DNA from: Cnuella takakiae
Lineage (GTDB): Bacteria > Bacteroidota > Bacteroidia > Chitinophagales > Chitinophagaceae
Length of the DNA: 34,120 bases
Assembly (NCBI RefSeq): GCF_001953305.1
Contig: NZ_MTFE01000010.1
Coordinates: 4,843,933 to 4,878,052 of the forward strand
Direction: 5' to 3'
In this document: positions 3,212 to 19,291 of the stretch, piece by piece
How the letters are laid out: the number at the start of each line of letters is the position of its first letter
Numbering within the stretch: the stretch's first letter is position 1
Notes under the pieces: model-generated
Databases searched by the model: none
Told to the model about the DNA's origin: nothing
The model's input: the letters and a program-made list of their open reading frames with translations, nothing else
Position numbers and translations under genes: made by a program

Positions 3212-5257
3212 TTACTGATTGTCACTAGTCTTCACTTTAGCCTTGCCGTCTTTCTTCTTCAACTTGATTTCTTTACCATTGGCACCTTCAACTTCAACCT
3301 TGGTTTTGGTACCCTCGGTAGATGTGCTGTTGGTAGCAGAATCAGTTGTAGTAGTACCTGCACCTGTCGAGCCGCTGGTTTGACCATTTGTGCTGCTGTC
3401 CATAGTGCTGCCGGAAGTGGTGCTACCCGAGCCAGTGGTGCCGGTTGAACCGCTTGTACCAGTAGCATCGGTAGTAGTGCTGCTGTTGGTACCTGTACCG
3501 GAGTTAACACCTGCACCGGTTGTGTCGGTACCTGTAGTTACACCCGAACCGGTGCTATTGTTTGACATAGTACTACCGCTGGTAGTACCGGTGCCGCTGC
3601 TCTGCATGGTGCTGGTACCAGACTGCATGGAATCGGTAGTGGTACCGGTACCCTGGTTCATATTGCTACCCTGTCTTGGACGGGTAGTATCACCCATGTT
3701 GGAGCTGTTGGAACCATTGCTATTCAGCTGGCTGGCATTGTTGCTGTTCTGCGTATTGGAACTATTACCCTGCATGGTAGCACCGCTGCTTTGTGTATTG
3801 GTGCTGCCCTGGTTCATGCTGCCCGACTGGTTGGTGCTGCCCGACTGGTTTACAGAACCGCTTTGGTTCATGGTTCCACTTGACTGCATATCAGTACCCA
3901 TACCGGCATTACCCTGGGTGCTGTTCATGCTATCCTGGCTCATTGAATTGCTGGGAATAACAGGTGGTACAAATGCACTGCCATCAGCACTGATGGTAGC
4001 GGTGCGGATGGTTCCGTTTTCCAGCAAGCGTACCATGTAATAACTGGAGCTATCCTGGCCCTGCAGCGTGGTTACATCATACACATCATCGCCATGCATC
4101 TGCTGTACTTTCTGCATTACATCAGAAGGAACGGCATTAGCCATCAGCGGCAGTGATACCATATAGCTTTGACCGCTGGGTGCAAAGTAACGACGTACGT
4201 TCTGGCCATTCTGCTGGTAGGTAGCACGCCAGAAACCATTGGATTGTTCCCATTGTGCATTACTTACACCTGGGGCCTCCGTAGCAAATGAACGTTGTAC
4301 CAGATCAGGAAGTGCATTGTTGCCATAAGCATTGTAAGCACCGGTACTGCTATTGGTGTTACCCATATCGCTGGTACCCTGTGTTTGCGACCCGCTCATG
4401 GTACCATTAGTTGTACCGCTATTCATGGTACCGTTGGTAGTACCGTTGTTCATGGTACCATCGGTGGTGCCGTTATTTACAGAGCCACTGATGCCGTTAG
4501 TAGTAGAACCACTGGTATTGGTACCATTGCTCATCGAACTGTCGGAAGCAGAACCAGTAACACCGGTACCACTATTTGCGGCATTACCGTTGTTCCAGGT
4601 ATTGCTGCCAGTAGTGGTATCGCTGCTCATATTACCTGCAGAATTGGTACCTGTACCCAGTGTACCACCCTGTGTGCCCAATGTGCCGTTCTGGCCGTTA
4701 TTGGTACCGTTGTTCAGGGTCGAATTAGTACCATTATTCAGGGTCGAATTGGTGCCATTATTCATGTTGCCATTCATACCACTGTTGGTGCCACGGCGGG
4801 TAGTATCGTTCATAGAACCGGTGCCATAAGTACCTGTAGTATTTCCGGAAGTACCCATGGTACCTGTACCGGTTGCGCCACTGCCGGTGGTGCGGGTGCG
4901 GTTAGGATTGATGGTAGTGTCGGCAGTACCGTTTACACCAAGGGTAGTGGTGTTGCCGGTGCCGCCAATGGTAGACCCGTTAGTGGTACCCTGCATGGTT
5001 GCATTAGGCCGGGTGCCGTTGCCGGTAGAACCCTGGATAGTACCCGATGAAGTGCCGGGCACAGTGCCTGTAGTACCGTTTACGGTACCTGAAGTTCCGG
5101 TAGTAGTGCCGGTGTTACCGGTAGTTCCTGTTGTTGTACCCGTGGTTTGTGTACCGGTAGTTGTACCCGTACTGCCCTGGGTGGTAGTACCCGTAGTTTG
5201 TGCCAGCAAGCCCGAACCGGAACTTGCCAAGAGCATCATTAGAAAAATCTTTTTCAT
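3212..5257 (-). CDS. Large secreted Thr/Gly/Asn/Ser-rich low-complexity protein with a central folded domain
   Basis: The product is 681 residues from the chosen ATG. A signal peptide (MKKIFLMMLLASSGSGLLAQ) is followed by about 290 residues built almost wholly of Thr, Gly, Asn and Ser, with local imperfect repeats such as NNGTNSTL and NGTTNGTM. About residues 312-435 form a compositionally normal domain ('DLVQRSFATEAPGVSNAQW', 'FWRATYQQNGQNVRRYF', 'DVMQKVQQMHGDDVYDV', 'YYMVRL') whose pattern resembles the PepSY-like/BLIP fold common in secreted Bacteroidota proteins. A second low-complexity stretch includes four tandem NQSGS units. The last 30 residues are basic and lysine-rich (KTKVEVEG...KKKDGKAKVKT). 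It is likely periplasmic or surface-exposed; its role is unknown. An in-frame TTG start 51 bases upstream was rejected in favour of the ATG that begins the signal peptide. The long opposite-strand reading frames across this gene are by-products of its composition. Confidence 0.75.
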   Translation of the reverse strand: MKKIFLMMLLASSGSGLLAQTTGTTTQGSTGTTTGTQTTGTTTGTTGNTGTTTGTSGTVNGTTGTVPGTSSGTIQGSTGNGTRPNATMQGTTNGSTIGGTGNTTTLGVNGTADTTINPNRTRTTGSGATGTGTMGTSGNTTGTYGTGSMNDTTRRGTNSGMNGNMNNGTNSTLNNGTNSTLNNGTNNGQNGTLGTQGGTLGTGTNSAGNMSSDTTTGSNTWNNGNAANSGTGVTGSASDSSMSNGTNTSGSTTNGISGSVNNGTTDGTMNNGTTNGTMNSGTTNGTMSGSQTQGTSDMGNTNSSTGAYNAYGNNALPDLVQRSFATEAPGVSNAQWEQSNGFWRATYQQNGQNVRRYFAPSGQSYMVSLPLMANAVPSDVMQKVQQMHGDDVYDVTTLQGQDSSSYYMVRLLENGTIRTATISADGSAFVPPVIPSNSMSQDSMNSTQGNAGMGTDMQSSGTMNQSGSVNQSGSTNQSGSMNQGSTNTQSSGATMQGNSSNTQNSNNASQLNSNGSNSSNMGDTTRPRQGSNMNQGTGTTTDSMQSGTSTMQSSGTGTTSGSTMSNNSTGSGVTTGTDTTGAGVNSGTGTNSSTTTDATGTSGSTGTTGSGSTTSGSTMDSSTNGQTSGSTGAGTTTTDSATNSTSTEGTKTKVEVEGANGKEIKLKKKDGKAKVKTSDNQ

Positions 5258-5847: not shown

Positions 5848-6264
5848 ATGATCATTATGAAAAGTGCAACTATCAACAATCTCGTGAAAATTCTGTTTTT
5901 CACCGCTGTAATGGCCCTGTTGACCGTAGGTACCGTACTTACCGCCAACGCAAACGAAGGCAACAATCCCGTAGCCATCAAATACATTGGTGCAGTAGGC
6001 AACCAGCCTGTTTTCCAAGTGGAATTTGACAATGCCGCCGAAGCTGAGCTGCTGGTGGTTTTGAAAGACGCCGACGGTCACGTACTGTACAATGAAAAGT
6101 TCCAGGGCAAGCATTTCTCAAAGCGTTTCCAACTAAACCGCAGCGAAGAAGACCTGCAGGTTTCCCTGAGCCTGATCAACCGTAAGGCCCGTCAGAGCCA
6201 AGAGTACCAGATCAACCGCAACACCCGTGTTGTAGAAGACGTAACTGTAACCCGCGTTCGTTAA
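5848..6264 (+). CDS. Small secreted beta-sandwich-like protein
   Basis: The product is a 138-residue exported protein. It has a positively charged start, a hydrophobic signal segment (about residues 14-33, ending 'TANA'), then about 100 residues of alternating beta-strand pattern: 'IKYIGAVGNQPVFQVEFDN', 'AELLVVLKDADGHVLYNEKF', 'SKRFQL', 'LQVSLSLINR', 'RVVEDVTVTRV'. This resembles the small Ig-like secreted proteins (DUF3244-like) common in Chitinophagaceae, with no catalytic motif. It probably acts in the periplasm or at the outer membrane; its role is unknown. The start is ATG at 5848 or in-frame ATG at 5857; neither has a ribosome binding site. A complete promoter upstream, a long leader and a strong terminator suggest a well-expressed single-gene unit. 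Confidence 0.8.
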   Translation: MIIMKSATINNLVKILFFTAVMALLTVGTVLTANANEGNNPVAIKYIGAVGNQPVFQVEFDNAAEAELLVVLKDADGHVLYNEKFQGKHFSKRFQLNRSEEDLQVSLSLINRKARQSQEYQINRNTRVVEDVTVTRVR

Positions 6265-7232: not shown

Positions 7233-7715
7233 ATGAAAGCAGCAAGCATCAGCGAGATCAAAACAGAATTGAAAGGTAAAAGTGCAGCCCAGCTGGCGGA
7301 GCTGTGCCTGCGCCTGGCACGTTTTAAAAAGGAAAATAAAGAACTGCTTACCTACCTGTTGTTTGAAGCCGATGATGAAGAGTCGTACCGCCGCAGTGTA
7401 CGCAGTGAAATAGAAGCAGGTATTGCCGCCATTAATACCAGCAACCTGTACATCGCCAAAAAAATGATCCGCAAGGTGCTGCGTACGGCCAATAAGTTCA
7501 TCAAATATTCGGGCGATCAAGCCACTGAAGTGGAGCTGCTGATCTTCTTTTGCCAGCAGCTCAATGAATCGGGTTTGCCACTCAGGCGCAGCCCGGCGCT
7601 GGAAAACCTTTATACAGGCGTTGTAAAAAAAGTAAAAGCAGGTGTAGCCAGTCTGCACGAAGACCTGCAATACGAGTACAGGGACCAGGTGGCTGCCCTG
7701 GAACAAAAGAAATAG
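7233..7715 (+). CDS. Conserved-looking helical hypothetical protein (160 aa)
   Basis: A soluble, almost wholly alpha-helical product rich in Lys, Glu, Leu and Ala. Helices of note are 'SISEIKTELKGKSAAQLAELCLRLARFKKENKELLTYLL' cut around residues 5-43, 'NLYIAKKMIRKVLRTANKFIKY' near 69-90, and a Glu/Leu-rich helix near 97-110. There is no signal peptide, membrane segment or catalytic motif. The heptad-like pattern suggests a helical bundle that may act as an adaptor. I recognise no named family. Its start ATG is preceded by no Shine-Dalgarno, usual for this phylum. It is monocistronic and convergent with the gene at 7807, with a strong shared hairpin between. Confidence 0.7.
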   Translation: MKAASISEIKTELKGKSAAQLAELCLRLARFKKENKELLTYLLFEADDEESYRRSVRSEIEAGIAAINTSNLYIAKKMIRKVLRTANKFIKYSGDQATEVELLIFFCQQLNESGLPLRRSPALENLYTGVVKKVKAGVASLHEDLQYEYRDQVAALEQKK

Positions 7716-14569: not shown

Positions 14570-14920
14570 TCATGCCAGCACGGCACCGGTGGCAAGGAAA
14601 ATATTGAGTTCGTCCTCCAGCTGCCTGATTTGCAAGAGAAAGTTCAGCAGGCCTGATTCCAGTTCCGCCTCATCGGGCCGAGCCCCGTTGAGGTGCAACA
14701 GGTAGTCGATAAAAGGCAGCACTTCGGTTATGCCCATGAGGTAGTAGGCCGGTTTTAGCTGGTGTGCCAGCCCCCGCAGGGCAGGCCAGTTGCGGGCTGC
14801 AAAATAGCTTTTCAGCTTATCGCTGCTCTCCTGTACTTCCTTCAAAAATGTATGTGCCAGTACCTGCACCTGGGCCACGGGCAAACCCGTAGCCGCTCTT
14901 ACCCTTAATACATCAAACAT
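14570..14920 (-). CDS. Histidine phosphotransfer (Hpt) domain protein
   Basis: A 116-residue, all-helical, single-domain protein. The phosphotransfer motif is 'LRGLAHQLKPAYYLMGI' with H53 as acceptor; the canonical AHxLKGSxxxxG pattern is kept except that the Gly after Lys is Pro. Hpt proteins shuttle phosphate between the receiver of a hybrid kinase and the receiver of a separate regulator. Its start overlaps the end of the hybrid kinase gene by 8 bases (14913-14920), so the two are translationally coupled and almost certainly partners. It is followed by the NarL-type regulator. Confidence 0.85.
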   Translation of the reverse strand: MFDVLRVRAATGLPVAQVQVLAHTFLKEVQESSDKLKSYFAARNWPALRGLAHQLKPAYYLMGITEVLPFIDYLLHLNGARPDEAELESGLLNFLLQIRQLEDELNIFLATGAVLA

Positions 14921-17498
14921 AGTGTGCGTTTTTCTGGCAGATCCATTTGTGGAGCAATGCCAGTAGTTCCTGCTCCTGAAAAGGTTTGGAAAGAAAATCG
15001 TTCATACCTGCAGTGAGATAGGTTTCTTTTTCTTCACGCAGTGCATGTGCAGTTAGTGCAATGATGGGCGTGTCACAAAACAACTGTTCCCTGATGGCGG
15101 CGGTAGCCGTTACGCCATCCATTACAGGCATCTGGATATCCATCAATATAATATCGTATGCATGGCGGCTGACCATGACTACTGCTTCTTCGCCATTTTC
15201 GGCAAGGCTTACCTCCAGTCCGGCACTGCGCAGCATCAGCCGCGCCACCAGGCTGTTGAACTTATTGTCTTCTACCAGCAATACGGAACAGCCTTTCAGC
15301 TTTGAAAAATCGGGTGCCGCTTCCGGCTCTTCGGGCAGCAGTTGCACTTCGGGGACAATAAAAGGCAGGCAGATCCGCACTTCGGTGCCCCTACCCTCCT
15401 GGCTCTCGACTTCGAGGTTGCCTTCCATCAGTTCTACCAGCGATTTGGAAATGGGCAGGCCCAAACCCGTACCACCAAAGCGGCGCACAAAGCCACGTTC
15501 GCCCTGGCTAAAAAATTCTTCAAATACATGCTTCAGGGTATCGGCATCCATGCCAATGCCGGTATCGGTCACAGTAATTTCAATGGTGCGCCCTTCTTGC
15601 TGGTTTACGCCTAAGCTGCAGGCCACCAGTACCGAACCCTGCTCGGTAAACTTGATGGCATTGCCTACTACGTTGAGCAGTACCTGGTTGAGGCGGTAAG
15701 GATCACCCATCACCTGACCAGGCAAGCCGGGGGCAATGCTTACGGATAGCGTTACGCCTTTTTCTTCGGCCTTATGTTCCAGCACGTGCTGTACGCGTTG
15801 CAACACTTCGTGCAGGTTCATCTCCATGCACGCTATCTGCAGCTTGCCTTCTTCTATTTTGGAAATATCAAGAATGTCGTTGATAATGGTCAGCAGGTTG
15901 CGTGCAGCCGAATCGATGGTATTTGCATAAAACCGCTGGGTATCGCTAAGCTCTGTCTTCAGCAACTGCGCAGTGAGGCCCATTACGGCATTCATAGGCG
16001 TGCGTACTTCGTGGCTCATATTGGCCAGAAAGCGGCGCTTGCTCTTTGCCGATGCTTCAGCGGCTTCCTTGGCAACAATCAGGTCCTGCTCCATGGCCTT
16101 ACGGTAGGTAATATCTTCCTGGAGGGTAAAATATTTGATCACCTTACCTGCTGCATCCAGGATGGGCTGCCCTTTGATGCTGATCCAGCAGGGTACGCCT
16201 GCCTTGGTATAATCGAGCAGTTCACCACGGAAAGGGTTACCGGCATTTGCCTGGCTTACGATTCCTGTTAATACTTCGGAGTCCTGGTTGCGCAGCAGCT
16301 GGCTTTGTTTTTTACCCCGCACTTCCTCCAGGGTGTAGCCGGTAATTTGTTCAAAGCCGGCATTTACCCATTCAATCTCCAGGTCGGCATTGGTGATCAC
16401 CACACCCGAACTGGTATTTTCCACCACTAAGGCCAGCTTTTTCAATTCGTCGGCCTGGCGGCGGGCTTCCGATACATCGCGGCAGATACAAACCAGGTCG
16501 CCATCAGGCAACAGGGTGAGGTTTACTTCCTGCGTAATGATATTGCCGGTTTTGCTGATACCCGATGTTTCGCCACCCCAGTGTCCATTGGCTGCCAGCA
16601 CGGGGAAGATTTCGGTTTCTATACGCTGTACTTCGGTATCGCCATACAGGGTGCGCCAAGACTTGCCTAAGAGCTCTGCCTGTGATGCATAACCGAAAAT
16701 GGAAGCATGGGCCTTGTTGAGGTAATAGAAGTTGCCTTCTTTATTCAACAACCCGATACCATCCATCACGGCTTCGATGGCCATGTGCTGGCGGCGGATG
16801 ATGTGTTCCGATTCTTTTACATTGGTAATATCGTGGCCAAAACCTATGACAAACTTTGTTGCTCCCGCTGCGTCAAACACAGGCTGAAAGCTGCGCATCT
16901 TGTACAGCACCTGTCCATTGCGTACAAGCGTTTCTTCATAGTGTACCACCTTGCGCTGGCTGATACAGGTTTCGAATGCAGCATTACGTCCTTCCACCAC
17001 CTTGAGGTCCAGGTTGCGCAGCTGGCAGTATTCCGTTTCGGTCTTACCAATCATCCAGGCCCGCACCTCGGGATCCCTGATGGCCTGCTCACCTACATAT
17101 ACAAAACGGTGTGCAGCGTCGAACACCACAAGGTCGATGGGAATGACCTGTGCAATGGTTTCGAATAAACCAACCTGCTGGGCCGGCGGCAATGGATAAT
17201 CCTGTGCAACCTGCACCATACCCATTACACCGGCACGGTTGCCTTCGGCATCCATGATGGCACTAAGCAGGGTGGTGCCGCTCCCCTGCTGCAAAGCATA
17301 GGTACGTTGCAGGGGACCTGCCCCTGCCAGCACTTGTGCTATATCCTGTTGAATGGGAGCAAATGCTGCGGACTGATACAAACCCAGTTCTTCAAGGTTG
17401 GTACAGACCCTAGAACCTGCCGGCTGCTGCAGCAAAAAGCGATTGCCGGAAATAAGGTATTGCCAACCAATGATTGGATCAACCGGTGACAGATTCAT
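14913..17498 (-). CDS. Hybrid sensor histidine kinase with multiple PAS domains and a receiver
   Basis: The product is 861 residues from ATG 17498 (a GTG at 17525 would add 9). Order, in that numbering: a poorly conserved N-terminal sensing region (1-105); PAS-like domains at about 110-235, 238-350 and 355-475, the last two with clear PAS/PAC patterns ('GVVITNADLEIEWVNAGFEQ', 'GKVIKYFTLQEDIT'); HisKA with 'FLANMSHEVRTPMN' and acceptor H496; HATPase with N-box N613, 'DTGIGMD' and 'GGTGLGLPISKSL'; and a C-terminal receiver (about 736-855) with D744, acceptor D787 ('ILMDIQMP') and K838. No membrane segment is evident, so it probably senses a cytoplasmic signal. It is coupled to the overlapping Hpt gene. 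Upstream, TAGTTTTG at 17620-17627 gives a leader of about 90-120 bases. Confidence 0.93.
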   Translation of the reverse strand: MNLSPVDPIIGWQYLISGNRFLLQQPAGSRVCTNLEELGLYQSAAFAPIQQDIAQVLAGAGPLQRTYALQQGSGTTLLSAIMDAEGNRAGVMGMVQVAQDYPLPPAQQVGLFETIAQVIPIDLVVFDAAHRFVYVGEQAIRDPEVRAWMIGKTETEYCQLRNLDLKVVEGRNAAFETCISQRKVVHYEETLVRNGQVLYKMRSFQPVFDAAGATKFVIGFGHDITNVKESEHIIRRQHMAIEAVMDGIGLLNKEGNFYYLNKAHASIFGYASQAELLGKSWRTLYGDTEVQRIETEIFPVLAANGHWGGETSGISKTGNIITQEVNLTLLPDGDLVCICRDVSEARRQADELKKLALVVENTSSGVVITNADLEIEWVNAGFEQITGYTLEEVRGKKQSQLLRNQDSEVLTGIVSQANAGNPFRGELLDYTKAGVPCWISIKGQPILDAAGKVIKYFTLQEDITYRKAMEQDLIVAKEAAEASAKSKRRFLANMSHEVRTPMNAVMGLTAQLLKTELSDTQRFYANTIDSAARNLLTIINDILDISKIEEGKLQIACMEMNLHEVLQRVQHVLEHKAEEKGVTLSVSIAPGLPGQVMGDPYRLNQVLLNVVGNAIKFTEQGSVLVACSLGVNQQEGRTIEITVTDTGIGMDADTLKHVFEEFFSQGERGFVRRFGGTGLGLPISKSLVELMEGNLEVESQEGRGTEVRICLPFIVPEVQLLPEEPEAAPDFSKLKGCSVLLVEDNKFNSLVARLMLRSAGLEVSLAENGEEAVVMVSRHAYDIILMDIQMPVMDGVTATAAIREQLFCDTPIIALTAHALREEKETYLTAGMNDFLSKPFQEQELLALLHKWICQKNAHYV

Positions 17499-17619
17499 AT
17501 AGGTACGGTTTAGATGCTGCGGCACCCAAAACAGGAGTTGCCGGTGCGTCCAGTGCAGTGGCGGCGTTTTTGCTCCTGTTTCAAGTAGTTCAGCGGCGTA
17601 ATTTTACGATCACGCATAG

Positions 17620-18983: not shown

Positions 18984-18991
18984 TACCTTTA
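18984..18991 (+). promoter_or_regulatory. -7 promoter element TACCTTTA for a short transcript
   Basis: Seven of eight bases match TAnnTTTG, and a T-rich stretch (18962-18968) sits about 20 bases upstream at the -33 position. Transcription would start near 18996. Confidence 0.45.
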
Positions 18992-19018
18992 TGGCTCACC
19001 AAAAAAAAGGAGGTATTC

Positions 19019-19066
19019 ATGAGTCTAGCAGCATATTCATGGAAGCCTTCGGTTAGTATCGCCTAA
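19019..19066 (+). CDS. 15-codon ORF with perfect Shine-Dalgarno
   Basis: ATG at 19019 encodes MSLAAYSWKPSVSIA and stops at TAA 19064-19066. AAGGAGGT at 19007-19014 is an 8-base match to the anti-Shine-Dalgarno of 16S rRNA, spaced 5 bases (from GGAGG) before the ATG. Such a site is rare in this phylum, where the ribosome's anti-Shine-Dalgarno is largely hidden. The peptide is too short for homology and has no run of one amino acid as in classical attenuators. An overlapping 21-codon frame from 18991 is less likely because its ATG overlaps the promoter. Confidence 0.4.
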   Translation: MSLAAYSWKPSVSIA

Positions 19067-19115
19067 CCGGGCTTAGTCCATCAAAATATCTGTTGATGCC
19101 CAAGCAGGCATCACT

Positions 19116-19149
19116 GGCCACCAGGTAAACCTGGTGGCCTTCTTTTTTT
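19116..19149 (+). terminator. Intrinsic terminator of the short RNA
   Basis: A perfect 10-bp GC-rich stem (19116-19125 with 19130-19139), TAAA loop, then TTCTTTTTTT. The next gene, DinB-like, starts 142 bases later. Confidence 0.88.
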
Positions 19150-19291
19150 ATAACAGATGCAGGGATTGGAATGGATGACAGGATGAAAAGCGATGTCTTC
19201 CGGGAAGGGCAAGCGTGCTTGTAGCAGGGGTTTTAGGATGATAAACAAAAGCACTTACCTTCAGATCCCTTTTACCAAAACCTTGATAGTT

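Follow-up and report, generated by a model that had tools for sequence, protein, structure and literature searches.

A conserved candidate small RNA of Chitinophagaceae with a mini-ORF, two alternative folds and an extended match to the 16S rRNA 3' tail

In Bacteroidota the anti-Shine-Dalgarno (anti-SD) sequence is hidden, the 3' tail of 16S rRNA being normally held by the proteins bS21, bS18 and bS6, and Shine-Dalgarno (SD) sequences are mostly avoided. The closest described system that uses an SD in this setting is the leader of rpsU, the gene of bS21. According to McNutt et al. (2023, PMC9976891), Flavobacterium ribosomes lacking bS21 favour strong SDs, about half of Chitinophagales satisfy the criteria for rpsU autoregulation, rpsU is suggested to be the only gene of Flavobacteriales under SD-dependent control, and in other orders some further ribosomal genes carry weaker SDs.

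Here we describe a unit from Cnuella takakiae, located in a 34,120-nucleotide stretch of its genome (the window), that resembles the Bacteroidota rpsU leader (PMC9976891) in having an extended SD that matches the 16S 3' tail; the unit and the rpsU gene of C. takakiae share the same AAAGGAGGTAT core. Unlike the rpsU leader, the unit has no bS21 product, its match is longer and reaches the AUG with a fixed spacer, and it forms a separate RNA with its own terminator and with masking and covarying hairpins. With dual-function small RNAs such as SgrS/SgrT it shares autonomy, small size, a short ORF and a terminator, but its ORF is much shorter and shows no amino-acid constraint, and the unit is defined by its match to the 16S tail. 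Like leader-peptide attenuators, it places a short ORF over exclusive hairpins followed by a terminator; unlike them, it has no conserved downstream gene, and its folds appear to act on the SD and not on the terminator.

Anatomy, autonomy and distribution of the unit

The unit is present in a single copy in the C. takakiae genome, between a minus-strand gene of an NT5C-type nucleotidase and a plus-strand DinB_2 gene. Every element listed in the initial annotation of the window (-7 box, SD, 15-codon ORF, hairpins, terminator) is present in the sequence, and the features of the unit are the following.

18984..18991, plus strand: promoter -7-like box TACCTTTA, read from the sequence; BLASTN identity starts at 18984 in most relatives
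18996..19003, plus strand: first conserved bases, TCACCAAA, in the unfitted alignment; approximate transcript start, as suggested by the -7 box
19004..19018, plus strand: 15-nt perfect complement of the 16S 3' tail (AAAAAGGAGGTATTC), comprising the SD and the entire spacer; 16S tail read
19007-19014, plus strand: SD AAGGAGGT, read from the sequence
19019..19066, plus strand: 15-codon ORF with start ATG 19019-19021, codons MSLAAYSWKPSVSIA and stop TAA 19064-19066, as read
19009..19050, plus strand: predicted hairpin of state 1 masking the SD and AUG, 19009-19014 with 19045-19050 and 19016-19021 with 19038-19043
19029..19092, plus strand: long hairpin of state 2 around the ORF body and stop, indicated by covariation
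19050-19056/19063-19069, plus strand: apical hairpin CGGTTAG/CTAACCG, spanning the last codons and the stop
19078..19092, plus strand: conserved 3' stretch CCATCAAAATATCTG, the 3' arm in state 2 and predicted to be single-stranded in state 1
19094..19113, plus strand: small hairpin of variable sequence, read and predicted by folding; relatives have a differing small hairpin there
19116..19149, plus strand: predicted intrinsic terminator with a T tail, stem 19116-19139 followed by TTCTTTTTTT

We take TAnnTTTG to be the Bacteroidota -7 consensus. The predicted fold is more stable than those of all 200 dinucleotide shuffles (z -6.7). The SD and ATG by themselves are not above chance in this genome, where the pattern AAAGGAGGTN{3,9}ATG occurs 15 times versus 13 times for the reversed pattern, and it is thus conservation that decides whether the unit is non-random. 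Elsewhere in the window, positions 14913-17522 of the minus strand encode a large hybrid histidine kinase that combines PAS domains with a receiver domain at its C-terminus.

The initial annotation regarded the unit as self-contained, and the comparison of its copies bears this out. Of 126 copies, 123 have the box TAnnTT 6-22 nt upstream of the model match, and 118 of 123 are followed by a terminator-like hairpin. The neighbourhoods of 118 distinct copies, pre-selected for the AAAGGAGGTAT leader and for 12-16 codons in the ORF, were compared: any one gene family flanks at most 8 of them, and the gene that comes next downstream points the same way as the unit in 64 cases and the other way in 50. 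The unit, whose promoter and terminator are predicted from sequence, is thus an independent one that does not serve as leader to any particular gene. The proposal that the DinB-like gene is its target in cis therefore finds no support in these neighbourhoods.

A covariance model built on 17 copies found the unit in 68 of the 294 family genomes sampled and in 33 of 101 genera, and the figure of 68 is likely an undercount because of the strict filters applied. Many of the carriers are soil bacteria. BLASTN at E<1e-10 matched 13 of the 17 other genomes of the same genus (12 at 82-92% identity and one at 76%) and also three other genera, most matches running from the -7 box to the end of the long hairpin. 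Conservation of the SD, ORF and stems in relatives, the absence of which the initial annotation had named as grounds for refutation, is clearly what we find. In a sample of the order, 19 of 298 genomes carry the unit; three of them belong to a second family, two of these being marginal (E about 0.01). The exact 21-base pattern occurs in 113 stretches of named genomes, 98 of which were scored with the covariance model; seven of the 113 contain unrelated ORFs and seem to match by chance. The 80 titles listed are mostly from Chitinophagaceae or Chitinophagales, and Chitinophaga (a strain of Chitinophaga pinensis included), Niastella, Puia, Segetibacter, Flavisolibacter and MAGs are among the matches listed.

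Outside the order, the class and phylum samples hold nothing convincing. Three of the 395 genomes of the class sample have the pattern, two being from the genus of C. takakiae and the third (G629) having only a 3-codon ORF, and of the eight with the pattern among the 395 genomes of the phylum sample, two are again from this genus and the other six score at most 19.7 bits or have no model score. One of these six (L321) does have a 13-codon ORF at its ATG. On viral contigs there are three pattern matches, none encoding the family peptide, with a best model score of 26.3 bits. A search of the window against Rfam 15 gave no matches at the gathering score, and the relaxed search returned only suhB (18.3 bits) and isrD (16.3 bits), far below the cut-off. 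We found no earlier description of the RNA in Rfam or in the literature searched, which consisted largely of papers available without subscription.

On the minus strand of L183, partial tandem copies at 1116-1198 and 1291-1378 lie beside an intact copy at 1471-1567; the partial copies retain the hairpin and terminator, while the promoter, SD and ATG are gone. Genome G251 has two intact copies on the minus strand of L097, at 5029-5125 and 5989-6085, about 960 bases apart.

Pairing of the leader with the 16S 3' tail in comparison with rpsU

The leader AAAAAGGAGGUAUUC runs without a gap to the AUG and is complementary to the 16S 3' tail of C. takakiae over 15 consecutive nucleotides. Both 16S copies of this genome end in GGAAUACCUCCUUUUUAGAG, the common 16S 3' end being GGAUCACCUCC. 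We searched 34 further genomes for 16S and matched 18, two of which (G036, G123) gave no comparison. In the 17 genomes where both sequences were read, the leader-tail run is 13-16 nt long with a pairing energy of -17.1 to -19.6 kcal/mol, which lies beyond the -13 kcal/mol criterion for SD-autoregulated mRNAs of the rpsU type. The 16S 3' end GGAAUACCUCC (L288:1500-1520, minus strand) is identical in the 17 genomes compared, and within the family the tail is nearly constant, with one change of a late base (G104), which is too little variation for covariation with the leader to show. The spacer AUUC is present in 75 of the 78 rows of the unfitted alignment. A full 15-pair helix between leader and tail leaves no spacer; it could therefore not form while the AUG occupies the P site, and its effect might be inhibitory. 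The core AAAGGAGGTAT occurs seven times in the C. takakiae genome: two of these are the 16S genes themselves, three lie within long open frames, one precedes rpsU and one belongs to the unit.

The leaders of rpsU, the gene noted for its strong SDs in this phylum, often read GGAGGTAT, which matches the 16S 3' end GGAAUACCUCC, and their free spacer is variable. When every rpsU leader was scored against the 16S tail of C. takakiae, the runs spanned 4-13 nt (median 10) in the 72 genomes that carry the RNA and 5-13 nt (median 10) in the 32 that lack it, and the run of the unit is at least as long as every rpsU run measured. The strong SD pointed out in the initial annotation is thus both conserved and exceptional. 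Weak rpsU SDs (above -11 kcal/mol) were found in 15 of the 72 genomes with the RNA and in 2 of the 32 without it, G023, in which no RNA was found, having been dropped since the script pattern did not match its rpsU start (its SD is weak by eye); 5 of 80 genomes had no bS21 match. Any association between carrying the RNA and having a weak rpsU SD amounts to a trend at most. All 15 RNA-bearing genomes with a weak rpsU SD retain AAAAGGAGGTATTC in the leader of the mini-ORF, which implies that this leader is maintained for its own sake. In genus g6 the rpsU SD is weak in three of the four genomes read, with energies of -6.4 (L271, G144), -6.0 (L360, G306) and -9.1 kcal/mol (L385, G266), and the RNA is retained; rpsU autoregulation may thus have been lost in these three genomes. 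The bS21 gene of C. takakiae lies elsewhere (G000:C1:2244816), and the unit encodes its 15-codon ORF and not bS21.

Alternative folds and the mini-ORF

Two folds of the unit stand out, and they are mutually exclusive because both use the same segment. The long hairpin covaries: in the unfitted alignment, which comprises 78 of 81 matches, there are 76 doubly changed cells versus 25.1 in shuffles (none of 500 as high), and 12 of the 23 pairs are affected versus 7.7 in shuffles (5 of 500). In the fitted alignments, which were adjusted to the long hairpin, 17 and 20 of the 23 pairs are affected. On the unfitted alignments RNAalifold draws another hairpin, which buries the SD and AUG against CAUGGAAACCUUC inside the ORF. 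The 12 pairs of this masking helix are formed in 96.9, 95.9 and 96.9% of cells in three counts versus 37-64% in slid controls (42-59% against 96.9% on the unfitted alignment). When the downstream columns were permuted, an equally good partner arose in 1 of 3000 and 2 of 3000 trials on two alignments that have many copies in common. The masking helix shows no covariation in the alignments tested because its 5' arm, on the SD side, does not vary; most changes in its 3' arm preserve pairing with the SD. Two positions that are unpaired in the long hairpin are kept pairable in the masking helix, with A or G at cons 48 in all 78 rows and U or C at cons 54 in 74 of the 78. Covarying stems, for which the initial annotation proposed to look, are found in the long hairpin and not in the masking helix.

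The two folds are balanced in their predicted probabilities (median 0.41 for the masking fold and 0.50 for the long hairpin in 132 copies pre-selected as above), and the masking fold has a probability of 0.1-0.9 in 87 of the 132. For the C. takakiae copy, the core alone is predicted to adopt the masking fold (0.97) and the full RNA the long hairpin. Shuffled downstream sequences pair with the SD nearly as often as the real ones (0.72 versus 0.75), so that the evidence lies in the identity of the helix and not in masking itself. The initial annotation had also proposed mutually exclusive hairpins, and exclusivity is indeed conserved, for the masking fold and the long hairpin. The pair it named, H2 (CATCAA 19079-19084 with TTGATG 19093-19098) and H3 (TGATGCC with GGCATCA), can be drawn here, but it is private to this sequence: the TTGATG stretch is absent from 16 aligned relatives, which speaks against a switch made of H2 and H3.

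Statistics on the ORF were taken from 128 unique, unfiltered model matches, of which 126 have the SD and ATG, and the ORF is 13-15 codons long in 123 of these 126. The remaining matches are the two partial L183 copies, which have no SD, an early stop in L174 and chance matches in L192 and L232. In the L174 copy (7262-7357, from a MAG) there is an in-frame stop at codon 6 and the rest of the RNA is intact. The lengths from the stop to the end of the hairpin are spread over all residues modulo 3 (46/45/32), so that the frame is kept inside the ORF only. In one clade, two compensating indels give the peptide a different N-terminal half, with the frame restored; this clade loses the Trp while CAUGG stays. 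The conserved Trp codon is accounted for by CAUGG, which is used in both folds. The peptides share a pattern around SWxPSV. The ratio pN/pS is 0.96 (91 CDS) and the three codon positions are equally variable (0.72/0.72/0.68, 92 CDS), both tests, made on the pre-selected copies, being weakened by the overlapping RNA constraint. From these sequences, the act of translation seems to matter more than its product.

Proposed mechanism, alternatives and significance

What the computation establishes, namely conservation, autonomy, complementarity, both folds and a kept frame, is best explained, at a rough probability of 0.45, by an autonomous two-state, ribosome-gated mini-mRNA or small RNA that would engage ribosomes with an exposed anti-SD, for example those lacking bS21. 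The unit would be transcribed in Chitinophagaceae as an RNA of about 150 nt from its own promoter and end at its own terminator. In state 1, the CAUGGAAACCUUC segment within the ORF would pair with the SD and start codon and conceal both; in state 2 it would pair downstream in the long hairpin, leaving the SD, spacer and AUG open, and the two folds would interconvert. Once open, the leader would be able to pair with the 16S 3' tail over 13-16 contiguous nucleotides, and since this tail is normally held by bS21, bS18 and bS6, the RNA should prefer 30S subunits whose tail is free, bS21-deficient ones for example. Capture of the open leader by a subunit with an exposed tail would stabilise the long hairpin; once the spacer pairs are released, the subunit could start on the ORF of 13-15 codons, read through the hairpin and stop in its 3' arm. 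State 2 would thereby be favoured, and the 3' stretch CCAU..AAAUAUCUG, which would be free in state 1 only, would be concealed. The output may be titration of free-tail ribosomes or, alternatively, ribosome-controlled antisense action of the candidate stretch CCAU..AAAUAUCUG, which would need a target; the CCATCAAAATATCTG stretch (19078..19092), whose conservation is observed, is the candidate antisense region.

The link to ribosomes with a free anti-SD that the initial annotation drew by analogy with rpsU is plausible in view of the conserved match to the 16S tail, and the sensing of altered 30S subunits that it suggested fits the anatomy read from the sequence. A more specific version, in which the unit is a dedicated RNA sensor of ribosome composition whose bistable fold and trans action are set by capture of the leader by the 30S subunit, is tentative and in our opinion doubtful, and we are just as hesitant to say that the 30S subunit sensed would be one with an unsequestered 16S tail, either bS21-deficient or immature.

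Other explanations account for part of the data. The pairing that spans the entire spacer to the AUG, the run at least equal to every rpsU run measured and the autonomy of the unit would all suit a pure anti-SD decoy, the leader capturing exposed 16S tails and so buffering SD-dependent translation, for example of rpsU; a decoy, however, has no need of the kept frame and ORF length, and the conserved masking fold also counts against it, so that we consider it unlikely, as we do the associated idea that the ORF merely lets captured ribosomes leave. It is quite unlikely that the functional output of the unit is the peptide of 13-15 residues encoded by a small mRNA. The frame, start and stop are kept and the pattern around SWxPSV is shared, but the pN/pS value and the even variability of codon positions, weakened as these tests are, point the other way, as does the clade whose indels give a different N-terminal half and which has lost the Trp but kept CAUGG.

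An ordinary trans-acting antisense small RNA, in which the leader and ORF would serve only stability or protection by ribosomes, agrees with the autonomy, the terminator and the conserved 3' stretch; we regard it as improbable since it leaves the near-invariant complement of the 16S tail and the kept frame unexplained. Control of the downstream gene by a leader-peptide attenuator would draw on the position of DinB_2, which lies downstream on the same strand in the window. This is very hard to reconcile with the scattered neighbours and orientations described above, and the terminator hairpin is retained in 127-128 of the 128 copies modelled, whether free or in either of two ribosome-bound states, its formation in all three states arguing against attenuation; we give this explanation almost no weight.

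The unit thus combines a conserved, switch-like anatomy, as read from its sequence, aimed at the 16S tail, in an RNA that we did not find described in Rfam or the literature searched. The longer match to the 16S tail, the predicted fold-controlled access to it and the kept mini-ORF suggest a second circuit for the hidden anti-SD. If the sensor reading is true, the RNA would stand beside rpsU as a second regulatory circuit based on the SD, in a phylum where SDs are mostly avoided. The RNA makes the role of bS21-lacking ribosomes directly testable and may be a natural reporter for such ribosomes.
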